DNA of 53,702 nt. It comes from an uncultured Clostridia bacterium. Lineage in GTDB: Bacteria; Bacillota; Clostridia; Christensenellales; CAG-138. The stretch covers positions 1 through 53,702 of the forward strand of contig CAJOKM010000003.1 in the NCBI GenBank assembly GCA_905235205.1. Direction: 5' to 3'. Under the pieces are notes generated by a model. The model was not told the DNA's origin. It saw only the letters and a list, made by a program, of their open reading frames with translations, and ran no database searches. Below, piece after piece: positions 5,728-25,503 of the stretch (position 1 is its first letter; each line of letters opens with the position of its first letter). Made by a program: the position numbers and the translations under genes.

Positions 5728-5733
5728 AAACCT

Positions 5734-5967
5734 TGCGTTGAAGGTGTGAAGTACCGTCCGAACGCAGTCGAAAGAGAGCCTCCGCCGCGGCTGAAAGCGG
5801 AGGAACAGAGCACGGACAGGGAAGGTTCGGCACCGGAGCATCTCCGTTTCGGAGCGCTGCCCCGCGTTATCGGGGAAATTGAGAGAAGGGAAAGAATCCC
5901 TTAATTTGGGTGGTACCGCGGAAACAGGGTTTTTCGTCCCATGCGTTTGCATGGGGCGTTTATTTTT
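5734..5967 (+). promoter_or_regulatory. T-box leader controlling pheS-pheT
   Basis: A tRNA-sensing leader. The T-box sequence GGGTGGTACCGCGG (about 5908-5921) is unmistakable and is followed by an intrinsic terminator with a 10-bp stem at 5935-5944/5949-5958 and a T-rich tail. Upstream, GAAAGAGAGCC followed by a GC-rich hairpin matches the distal part of Stem I, and further hairpins (CTCCG-TTT-CGGAG, CCCCGCGTTATCGGGG) occupy the Stem II/III region. The likely specifier codon is UUC at 5826-5828, in the usual place before a G-rich ACCGGAG stretch, which fits phenylalanine and the downstream genes. Uncharged tRNA-Phe would stabilise the antiterminator and permit transcription. The specifier assignment is by position only. 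Confidence 0.93.
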
Positions 5968-22529: not shown

Positions 22530-23450
22530 ATGAAAAAACCGATTCTTCTGATCATGGCGGCAGGCATGGGCAGCCGCTTCGGCGGGCCCAAGCAGATCGA
22601 ACCGATCGACGAACACGATCACGTCATTTTAGACTTCTCCGTGTTCGACGCGATCCGCGCCGGCTTTGAAAAGGTCGTCGTCATCATTAAAAAAGAGATG
22701 GAAGCAGACTTTGAGGAGCGTGTCGGCAGACGGATTCGTCCGCATGTGAAGCTCGAGTACGCGTTCCAGTCGCTCGACAAGCTTCCGAAAGGCTACGAGA
22801 TCCCAGAGGGACGCGTGAAGCCGTGGGGAACCGCGCACGCGATCCTCTGCGCCAAAGAGCACCTTGACGCGCCGTTTGCCGTGCTGAACGCGGATGATTT
22901 CTACGGCGCGGACGCGTTCCAAAAAATCTATGACTTCTTAAGCGCGCCGCACAGCGAAAGCGAGTACGCGATGGTCGGATACCGGCTGGGCAATACGCTG
23001 TCGGACTACGGTTCCGTCGCGCGCGGCGTGTGCGAGATCGGACCGGACGGCAGGCTCGTTACGCTGACCGAGCGGCTGAAGATCGAAAAGCGCGACGGCG
23101 CGGCCGCGTTCACCGAGGACGACGGCGAGACTTTTACGCCGCTTGCGCTGGATACGCTTGTTTCGATGAACCTGTTCGGGCTGCAGCAGACCGTGCTCGA
23201 CGCGTTTGAAAAGCGCTTCCCGCCGTTTTTGGACGAGAATCTGCCCAAGAACCCCTTAAAGTGCGAATACCTGCTGCCGCGCGTGCTCGACGCCATGATG
23301 CAGGAGGGCAAAATCAGCATCGAAGTGCTCGCAACCACCGCGCGCTGGCACGGCGTCACGAACCGTCCCGACCTGCCGCTTCTCAAGGAAGCGATCCGCA
23401 GCATGAAGGATCAGGGACTGTATCCGGACGAACTCTGGAAGGAAAACTGA
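22530..23450 (+). CDS. Nucleotidyltransferase, sugar-1-phosphate type
   Basis: 306 residues from the ATG at 22530, preceded by GAAGGGAG. The N-terminal nucleotide-binding motif is LIMAAGMGSRFGGPKQ, with the metal-binding Asp in VLNADDFYG and a substrate region around WGTAHAI. These are features of the NTP_transferase superfamily that makes NDP-sugars. The long C-terminal half (ARWHGVTNRPDL and so on) is that of an uncharacterised clade common in Clostridia, distinct from GalU and RmlA, so the sugar is not assigned. Probably co-transcribed with the DUF2156 gene. Confidence 0.85.
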   Translation: MKKPILLIMAAGMGSRFGGPKQIEPIDEHDHVILDFSVFDAIRAGFEKVVVIIKKEMEADFEERVGRRIRPHVKLEYAFQSLDKLPKGYEIPEGRVKPWGTAHAILCAKEHLDAPFAVLNADDFYGADAFQKIYDFLSAPHSESEYAMVGYRLGNTLSDYGSVARGVCEIGPDGRLVTLTERLKIEKRDGAAAFTEDDGETFTPLALDTLVSMNLFGLQQTVLDAFEKRFPPFLDENLPKNPLKCEYLLPRVLDAMMQEGKISIEVLATTARWHGVTNRPDLPLLKEAIRSMKDQGLYPDELWKEN

Positions 23451-23468
23451 CCGTTTGAAAAACGGGGC

Positions 23469-23497
23469 TTGACAAAGAGAACGGAATCATATACTAT
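23469..23497 (+). promoter_or_regulatory. Promoter of the cysteine operon
   Basis: TTGACA (23469-23474) followed by TACTAT at 17 bp (23492-23497), or by the overlapping TATACT at 15 bp (23490-23495). The leader peptide ATG is about 28 nt further on. Confidence 0.8.
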
Positions 23498-23524
23498 ATA
23501 TGAAAACACGGGAAGGAGAAACAG

Positions 23525-23599
23525 ATGGGTAAGGCGATCCAAAACCGCAAAGCATGTTGTTGCGCTTGTTTTGTCATGCCCGTTTGTGTTTCCGGATAG
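23525..23599 (+). CDS. Cysteine-rich leader peptide of the cysK operon
   Basis: A 24-codon reading frame starting MGKAIQNRKACCC, with Cys at codons 11, 12, 13, 15 and 21 (TGT TGT TGC, then TGT, then TGT) and the stop TAG at 23597-23599. AAGGAGA lies six bases before the ATG, so it should be well translated. It sits between a consensus promoter and an intrinsic terminator in front of cysteine synthase. Five cysteines in 24 codons is far above chance and matches the product of the operon, as in trp, his or leu leader peptides. Ribosome stalling at the Cys cluster would report shortage of charged tRNA-Cys. It is not expected to have a function as a free peptide, although metal or thiol binding cannot be excluded. 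Confidence 0.85.
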   Translation: MGKAIQNRKACCCACFVMPVCVSG

Positions 23600-23648
23600 G
23601 GGTTTTACGCTGCAACCGGAAGGCCGACGGGCTTTCCGGTTTTTTCTT
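23588..23648 (+). promoter_or_regulatory. Attenuator: antiterminator and terminator before cysK
   Basis: The terminator is a 12-bp stem with one G-U pair (23614-23625 with 23630-23641, loop GACG) followed by TTTT-C-TTT. A competing hairpin can form between GTTTCCGG (23588-23595), which includes the last codons of the leader peptide, and CCGGAAGG (23616-23623), the 5' arm of the terminator. A ribosome at the leader stop codon would cover the first strand and let the terminator form; a ribosome stalled on the Cys codons about 25 nt upstream would leave it free and allow read-through. This is the geometry of classical attenuation. Confidence 0.82.
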
Positions 23649-23696
23649 TGTCGCGGAAAACGGGCGCATCACATAATCTGAAAGAGAGGAACGAAC

Positions 23697-24626
23697 ATGA
23701 ACGTATACACATCTGCCGATCAGCTGATCGGAAAAACGCCGCTGCTGGAGCTGCAGCGGCTTGCGCGCGAGGAAGGAGCGGACGCACGGATCCTTGCAAA
23801 GCTGGAGTATTTCAATCCGGCGGGATCGGTCAAGGATCGCATCGCAAAGACGATGATCGACGACGCGGAGCAAAAGGGACTTTTGAAAGCGGGCTCGGTG
23901 CTGATCGAGCCGACGTCCGGCAACACCGGGATCGGGCTTGCGTCCGTCGCGGCGGCGCGCGGATACCGCGTGATCATCGTGATGCCGGAGACGATGAGCA
24001 TCGAGCGCAGGCGGCTGATGCAGGCGTACGGCGCGGAACTGGTGCTGACCGACGGCGCGTCGGGCATGAAGGGTGCGATCGCGCGCGCGGAGGAGCTGGC
24101 GCGGGAGATTCCGGACGCATTGATCCCGGAGCAGTTTAAAAACCCCGCCAATCCCGAAGCGCACCGTACCGGCACGGGACCGGAGATCTGGGCGGACACG
24201 GACGGGCAGGTGGATCTGTTCGTGGCGGGCGTCGGCACGGGCGGAACGATCACCGGCGTCGGCGCATACCTGAAAGCGCAGAACCCGAACGTGCGCGTCG
24301 TCGCGGTCGAGCCCGCCGGCTCGCCGGTTCTGAGCCAAGGCGTTGCCGGCGCGCATAAGATCCAGGGGATCGGCGCGGGTTTCGTGCCGGAGATCCTCGA
24401 TACGGCGGTGTACGACGAGGTGATCGCCGTGGAGAACGACGACGCGTTCAAAACGGCGCGAACGATCGGGCGCACGGAGGGGATCCTGGTCGGCATCTCG
24501 TCCGGCGCGGCGGCATGGGCGGCGATCAGGCTCGCGAAGCGACCGGAGAACCGCGGAAAAACCATCGTGGTTCTGCTCCCGGACAGCGGCGACCGCTATC
24601 TGTCCACGGCGTTGTTCGAGGCGTGA
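23697..24626 (+). CDS. cysK: Cysteine synthase (O-acetylserine sulfhydrylase)
   Basis: 309 residues. It makes cysteine from O-acetylserine and sulfide with PLP. The Schiff-base lysine is Lys46 in NPAGSVKDR; the substrate loop [10 protein letters not shown] and the phosphate-binding [12 protein letters not shown] are intact, as is the C-terminal [20 protein letters not shown] precedes the ATG. The next gene is serine acetyltransferase, one base past the stop, so both steps from serine to cysteine are made together under control of the attenuator upstream. Confidence 0.97.
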
Positions 24627-24627
24627 G

Positions 24628-25503
24628 ATGAAACGGAAGGCAAAACAGGCGGCGCTGGATGCAGCGCAGGCATTACAAGCGGAAAGCGCTCAAAACACGC
24701 AGACGGACTTTCGCGGGTTCAGGCGCCGCGCGGAGCGCATGACGGACTGCGTGATCGACGCAATGTTTCCGCGGCACGCAAAAACTCCGGCTGCGCCGAA
24801 GCGGATGCTTCGGGAGGCGTCGAAGCATCTTGTGCGGTGTCTTTCCACCGTACTGAGCGACGCGGACAGGGCGGAAGCGATCGCAGGAACGTTTTTCGGC
24901 GCGCTGCCCGAGGTGTTCGGAATGCTCCGCGCCGATCTTGAAGCGGCGTACCGCGGCGATCCCGCGGCGCACAGCGTGGACGAGATCATTCTCTGCTATC
25001 CGGCGTTTTTTGCGATCTGCACCTACCGGCTGGCGCACGTGCTGTACCGGGCGGGCGTTCCGCTGCTGCCGCGCGTGATGACGGAATACGCGCACCAAAA
25101 AACCGGGATCGACATCCATCCCGGCGCGCAGATCGGCGAGGAGTTCTTTATCGATCACGGAACCGGCGTCGTCATCGGGGAAACGTGCACCATCGGAAGG
25201 AACGTCAAGATCTACCAGCATGTGACGCTCGGCGCAAAGAGCTTCAACGTCGACGGGAGCGGCGCGCTCGTCAAGGGGATCAAGCGGCATCCCGACATCG
25301 GCGATCGTGTGGTCATCTATTCCGGCGCGACGATCCTCGGCGGCGAGACACAGATCGGGAACGACTGCATCATCGGCGGCAGCGTGTGGCTGACGCATTC
25401 GGTGGAGGCGGGGAAGATGGTGCTTGCGCGCTCGACGGTCACCGACGCGCCGCTCACGCGTGACGTTATGCACGCGTCGGTTCTGGACAGCGCTCTGCTG
25501 TAA
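24628..25503 (+). CDS. cysE: Serine O-acetyltransferase, long form
   Basis: 291 residues. Residues about 1-135 form the helical N-terminal domain; from about 165 a left-handed beta-helix of hexapeptide repeats begins: DIHPGAQIGEEFFIDHGTGV, VVIGETCTIGRNVKIYQHVT, LGAKSF, then HPDIGDRVVIYSGATILGG. The active-site His pair lies in FIDHGTG and KRHPDIG. It acetylates serine for CysK. The length and the KSFNVDG insertion match the SATase/EpsC-like group found in Clostridia and Bacteroidetes. Translation is coupled to cysK by a one-base gap. A terminator follows at once. Confidence 0.94.
   Translation: MKRKAKQAALDAAQALQAESAQNTQTDFRGFRRRAERMTDCVIDAMFPRHAKTPAAPKRMLREASKHLVRCLSTVLSDADRAEAIAGTFFGALPEVFGMLRADLEAAYRGDPAAHSVDEIILCYPAFFAICTYRLAHVLYRAGVPLLPRVMTEYAHQKTGIDIHPGAQIGEEFFIDHGTGVVIGETCTIGRNVKIYQHVTLGAKSFNVDGSGALVKGIKRHPDIGDRVVIYSGATILGGETQIGNDCIIGGSVWLTHSVEAGKMVLARSTVTDAPLTRDVMHASVLDSALL

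Follow-up and report, generated by a model that had tools for sequence, protein, structure and literature searches.

The locus lies in a stretch of 53,702 nucleotides (the window, by which we mean the whole stretch) belonging to the draft genome of an uncultured Clostridia bacterium (1.77 Mb, 78% complete). A predicted promoter is followed by a short cysteine-rich frame, a hairpin with a T run and the genes cysK and cysE, which are separated by a single base. The gene found 5′ of the leader region is nucleotidyltransferase-like, with weak NCBIfam matches only. The features are the following.

23469..23497, + strand: predicted promoter, from the sequence, TTGACA at 23469-23474 and TACTAT at 23492-23497, with a 17-base spacer counted by eye
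about 23513..23518, + strand: leader Shine-Dalgarno (SD) AAGGAG, from the sequence
23515..23531, + strand: segment 1, leader SD and start codon, partner of segment 2 in the 1:2 helix of the minimum-energy fold
23525..23599, + strand: leader frame of 24 codons, MGKAIQNRKACCCACFVMPVCVSG, ATG at 23525, stop at 23597-23599
23555..23569, + strand: putative control codons TGT TGT TGC GCT TGT (Cys 11, 12, 13 and 15), from the sequence and its conservation
23577..23595, + strand: segment 2, the last codons of the frame, predicted to pair either with segment 1 (23577-23593) or with segment 3 (23589-23595)
23614..23625, + strand: segment 3, 5′ arm of the terminator, in which 23616-23622 is the antiterminator partner
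23630..23645, + strand: segment 4, 3′ arm of the terminator and T run, from the fold, the alignment and the sequence
23697..24626, + strand: cysK, cysteine synthase A (NCBIfam TIGR01139, 462.6 bits, cut-off 350.95)
24628..25503, + strand: cysE, serine O-acetyltransferase (best NCBIfam match TIGR01172, E 3.3e-47, 160.5 bits, below the cut-off of 210.65)

The promoter spacer is likewise 17 bases long in the L003 and L013 loci, again by a count made by eye. A sequence-only reading of this DNA had described a 24-codon frame preceded by AAGGAG and holding Cys at codons 11, 12, 13, 15 and 21, and every one of these elements is present in the sequence. The strong terminator with its T run, which it placed just before cysK, is confirmed as a stem of 12 pairs (23614-23625/23630-23641, -21.1 kcal/mol) with six T at 23640-23645. 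The antiterminator that it drew between 23588-23595 and 23616-23623 holds for seven pairs (23589-23595/23616-23622), the eighth being a G:G opposition. The proposed RNA layout was right as to the antiterminator/terminator pair but had overlooked a third helix, formed by the leader SD and start with the end of the frame. Indeed, in the minimum-energy fold 23515-23531 pairs with 23577-23593 while the terminator is retained. In the trp- and his-type attenuators of Proteobacteria, a short frame bearing tandem codons of the end-product amino acid is combined with helices 1:2, 2:3 and 3:4 and a T run. As the 1:2 helix joins the 2:3 and 3:4 helices, all three alternative helices of the trp type are predicted here.

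Three Cys codons are by themselves little informative, since the TGY triplet pattern is common in this genome: the bare TGYTGYTGY pattern occurs at 291 places (both strands), against 253 for the reversed pattern. Our screen required an SD-led frame 12-45 codons long in which a stretch of 12 residues held three or more Cys; a hairpin at least as stable as -12 kcal/mol, with a T run, had to lie no more than 75 nt beyond it. After removal of L241 (no cysK match) and of L002 and L164-L173 (not cysK or repeats), we collected 243 cysK upstreams, oriented to the cysK strand by tblastn, and kept the 236 that were distinct and at least 350 nt long; L079, L083 and L111 were shorter, and L064, L075, L120 and L176 were identical to another. 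For loci on short stretches the cysK start was set from about 100 bases of overlap, and that of L132 is possibly one base off. The screened loci do not include the order-level cysK places in G340, G247, G141 and G197.

The sequence-only reading had called for a search of related genomes for short Cys frames and terminators at cysK, and these are found: 30 of the 236 regions carry both, as compared to 0 of 2360 dinucleotide shuffles, among which the frame alone appeared 40 times. The reverse strand of the same upstreams gave 0/236. Replacing Cys in the same screen by Trp, His, Pro, Gln, Asn or Asp gave 0/236 each, and by other residues few positives (Phe 1, Thr 1, Tyr 2, Ile 2, Lys 3, Glu 5, Met 6); this control covered these 13 residues. 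The positives consist of 14 leaders of the type found in the window's genus, nine from g13, a genus of the same family, two of the L021/L024 type (from the window's genus) and five others (L038, L040, L041, L066 and L071). The fifteenth genus-type leader, L022, has a hairpin that did not pass the automatic test; it enters the table of 31 leaders without being counted in the 30/236. In this screen, the 80 distinct loci taken from other families of the order yielded no Cys frame with a terminator. Finally, of the 29 leader loci with enough flanking DNA, 26 have cysE after cysK.

Frame, SD and Cys codons are present in all 31 tabulated leaders. In the genus-type leaders, the first two Cys of the tandem and the distal Cys are invariant (15/15 each) and the third tandem Cys is found in 13, while third bases and neighbouring codons vary. 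Both TGT and TGC are used at the conserved positions, apart from the first tandem codon, which is TGT in 15/15. A loss of the Cys codons or of the frame in homologous leaders that keep the terminator had been named beforehand as evidence against attenuation; instead, all 15 keep the frame, the Cys codons and the terminator (imperfect in L022).

Such conservation of the tandem and distal Cys would also be expected from a working Cys-rich micropeptide, binding for example a metal or a thiol, located ahead of an ordinary terminator. The codon usage can be read on the same side: the leaders are TGT-heavy (TGT:TGC 95:43 over all Cys codons of the 31 leaders, against 6:42 in ten genes of the window) and selection therefore acts on the codons. 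The bias is stronger still in the tandem runs (73:9 in the 31 leaders; the ten window genes favour TGC), and may come from stalling or from the shape of the RNA. However, the peptide outside its Cys residues differs between leader groups, and the residues at its end follow the RNA pairing, codon offset 12 being Ser or Leu according to whether the antiterminator has a U-A or a C-G pair there. Moreover, the hairpin begins 12-28 nt after the stop codon in 30 of the 31 leaders (the 31st is imperfect). We consider a functional micropeptide highly improbable, and attenuation the better account of these leaders.

The window leader folds at -57.9 kcal/mol, compared to -42.9 for its shuffles (z -3.72). 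An RNA structure of this strength, conserved as it is, would suit a terminator switch that binds a metabolite or a protein and that happens to contain a short frame; that the nucleotides of codons 18-21 are conserved largely through the 1:2 helix points the same way. Against this, the SD-led Cys frame recurs in 31 leaders with synonymous changes and with flanks that differ between groups, the fold contains no aptamer-like junction and no Rfam family is recognized: a search of the cysK leader, at the gathering cut-off and at E 10, returned nothing relevant. A binding switch thus appears improbable to us, if somewhat less so than the micropeptide, and ribosome-mediated attenuation agrees better with the recurrence of the frame.

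The pairing between start and end of the frame has a z below -2.3 relative to shuffles in 21 of the 31 leaders, and is weak or absent (z above -1.1) in six (L015, L066, L117, L021, L024 and L071). Comparison of own with swapped 1:2 pairs gave P 0.009 for 13 divergent leaders, which were chosen, and P 0.012 for nine, about one per group; within the genus, the own-versus-other P was 0.08, and two control segments gave 0.997 and 0.85. In alignment A3, which holds 12 of the 15 genus-type leaders, 94.7% of the cells of this helix are paired, with no double change within the genus. The helix accounts for much of the constancy of Met-Pro-Val-Cys, the codons of which pair with the start region. L013, L015 and L022 were left out of A3 because their hairpins do not line up with the others in the full alignment A1. 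All A3 cell counts, including those below, are inflated by the relatedness of the sequences.

Since the 1:2 helix hides the leader SD and start, the leader could chiefly limit its own translation and respond to translation in general rather than to cysteine. This would leave the Cys specificity unexplained, notably the absence of any positive in the Trp and His controls, and we give it very little weight next to a cysteine-sensing attenuator.

The terminator is paired in 120/120 cells of A3, two of its pairs showing double changes. The antiterminator helix (columns 104-114/126-135) is paired in 112/120 cells, against at most 68 when the register is slid. At column pair 104:135, seven leaders have C-G and five have U-A, without mismatch, and the terminator pair 135:150 changes along with it (AU 5, GC 4, GU 3), which makes a three-way base change. 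The antiterminator is thus kept through paired changes in aligned leaders, as the sequence-only reading had proposed to verify. The energy of the duplex between segments 2 and 3 is no better than that of shuffles (mean z -0.05), and the own-versus-other permutation gave P 0.03-0.11, with P 0.098 for one control segment. As these energy tests are not clearly significant on their own, the case for the antiterminator is made by the register and the paired changes. When the stalled state is folded, at least four pairs form between the stop region and the terminator 5′ arm in 25 of the 31 leaders, a count made without a control set; L009, L011, L038, L115, L119 and L143 make fewer than four. These sequence comparisons make it likely that an antiterminator, mutually exclusive with the terminator, is located 3′ of the control codons.

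The frame, the Cys codons and the predicted helices, together with their conservation, are read from sequence; translation, stalling and the response to cysteine are what we infer from them. On this basis, we propose that cysK-cysE are controlled by ribosome-mediated transcription attenuation of the trp type, with the leader sensing charged tRNA-Cys, a reading to which we assign a probability of roughly 85%. The conserved frame, Cys codons and helices support the analogy with trp and his attenuation drawn by the sequence-only reading. Without translation, or once the ribosome has finished the frame, the 1:2 and 3:4 helices would form and transcription would end before cysK. When Cys-tRNA is scarce, the ribosome would pause at codons 11-15 and occupy the 1:2 loop, judging from generally quoted footprint sizes. 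This would leave segment 2 free from position 23588, so that the 2:3 helix could form and the polymerase proceed into cysK-cysE. A ribosome that has reached the stop codon would mask segment 2 instead, allowing 3:4 to form. The geometry suggests that only codons 11-15 can stall the ribosome while sparing the antiterminator, as codon 21 (23585-23587) adjoins segment 2.

The covariance model of the leader gave one match per genome in 15 of the 23 genomes of the window's genus, each at cysK (E 0.01). The model was built from 12 leaders, which make up 12 of these 15 matches, and L013, L015 and L022 are independent of it. Outside the genus, the remaining 80 genomes of the family (103 in all) gave no match at E 0.01 with strict filters; since this search also missed the related g13 leaders, it is uninformative on more distant types. 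The remaining eight genomes of the genus comprise two with the L021/L024 type, three with a leaderless cysK (L005, L020 and L023) and three with no cysK match at E 1e-110. In g13, the leader is present in nine of the ten genomes that have cysK. In the CysK tree, which is poorly resolved, the genes with a leader are spread over several branches.

A cysteine T-box was considered as the control of cysK and rejected, there being no T-box match at 23440-23710. T-boxes are found in all 23 genomes of the genus. The window's genome has five, none at cysK; they precede pheST, valS, hisS, ileS (just under its cut-off) and thrS. One of them lies in the window itself, before pheS-pheT (5729-5944, + strand); it scores 89.5 bits, just under the gathering score of 93, and is ordinary. 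The pheT gene was identified by a family match, and pheS was read from the sequence, with no match at the strict E 1e-100.

An Rrf2 match is also present in 23/23 genomes of the genus. By eye, a GATAGG-like palindrome lies near the promoter in L005, the L009 type, L020, L023 and L090, the g13 type included, and is not seen in the leader type of the window. In L005, an Rrf2-family gene (G019:C20:35363-35752, minus strand) is divergent from the leaderless cysK, whose promoter carries a palindrome-like repeat, and this cysK may be under CymR-type control. The promoters of L009 and L114-L121 share a constant TACTAAACCGATAGGA near the -10 box, Rrf2-operator-like by eye, beside the Cys leader; double control by Rrf2 and the Cys leader is possible in these loci. 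We had considered that leader and Rrf2 control might be mutually exclusive within the genus. This idea was dropped: the cysK genes of L005, L020 and L023 lie on other CysK branches, and the L009 type seems to have both.

Another element, absent from the window, precedes other cysK genes (L053, L038, L034, L050, L047, L215 and others): a second, SD-led mini-frame with an in-frame CGA-TGT (Arg-Cys). CGATGT occurs in 36 of the 236 regions. Hexamers with the same base composition average 5.5 regions, and none of them matches CGATGT, although another reaches 33. An open SD-ATG frame reaches CGATGT in frame 28 times, against 0 and 1 in the other two frames. Counting CGATGT or CGATGC in an SD-led frame yields 30 loci, a few of which are probably due to chance. 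In 28 of these 30, the distance from the start of the mini-frame to cysK is 81-118 nt, and in eight the frame ends at that Cys; in L032 it continues towards cysK without a stop. The strand running from Arg-Cys onward can pair with the cysK SD and start region, and the pairing of the Arg-Cys neighbourhood with the cysK ribosome site is better for own than for swapped partners (P 0.002, 26 loci chosen from the 30), albeit weak in several. Taken together, these sequence patterns make the mini-frame a probable translational attenuator: a ribosome paused at its Cys codon would free the cysK ribosome site and turn translation on. Both elements occur in series in L021, L024, L038, L040, L041 and L066. 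It is conceivable, with a chance that we rate a little below even, that in Clostridia of this order the ribosome senses cysteine twice at cysK, through the terminator-type leader with its SD-hiding 1:2 helix and through the Arg-Cys mini-frame.

The leader shares with the trp/his type a tandem-codon frame, three alternative helices, a T run and biosynthetic genes downstream. It differs in its signal (cysteine), its target (cysK-cysE), its host (Clostridia) and its segment 1, made of the leader SD and start. The poly-Cys leaders of mycobacteria were reportedly titled leaderless by Canestrari in 2020, and are cited as translation attenuation. In mycobacteria and other Actinobacteria, short poly-Cys frames precede cys operons with the run near the stop, and no conserved terminator is reported (PMC1262725). 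Our leaders resemble these in having short Cys-run frames before cys genes but, unlike them, are SD-led, include a terminator and have 30-45 nt between their first Cys cluster and the stop (27/31). The SD, the terminator and the position of the Cys cluster rule out the mycobacterial leaderless polycysteine attenuator as a class for them.

Closer in layout is the uORFC-8-2 motif found before cysS in Rhodobacterales, for which ribosome-mediated attenuation was proposed and which likewise combines a frame with two tandem Cys and an intrinsic terminator (PMC8632094). That motif differs in preceding a cysteinyl-tRNA synthetase gene, in belonging to Alphaproteobacteria and in its tandem Cys, usually codons 14-15, being inside the first stem (PMC8632094). 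According to PMC2940859, the cysK-cysE operon of Clostridium perfringens is governed by a cysteine T-box; the operon, the tRNA-Cys charging signal and premature termination are common to both cases, whereas in C. perfringens the RNA reads the tRNA directly and here the ribosome would do so. The same study notes that some clostridia have no T-box at cysK and that other mechanisms may exist (PMC2940859). In Firmicutes, two further sources describe His leader peptides before hisS/hisZ (PMC2965389) and a Leu-rich leader before ilv in Staphylococcus aureus (PMC5794164); ordinary leader-peptide attenuation is thereby on record in this phylum, with different genes and amino acids. Among the literature matches listed, none reports a leader-peptide attenuator for cysteine in Clostridia, which is weak evidence of absence, most subscription papers being outside the coverage. 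The kind of mechanism is known, and its cysteine-specific, cysKE case in Clostridia is unexpected there.

The cysteine operon of clostridia has hitherto been credited to T-boxes and CymR-type repressors, and the leader offers a testable candidate for the control of cysK genes without a T-box, in hosts that are uncultured gut and rumen bacteria. If our reading is true, cysteine would become one of the few amino acids for which Firmicutes use a leader peptide as sensor, and cysK would illustrate how control by T-box, by Rrf2 and by the ribosome may replace one another, or stack, at a single gene. Should the double sensing through leader and mini-frame also be true, these bacteria would have, in ribosome-based sensing of cysteine, a main alternative to control by T-box and Rrf2.
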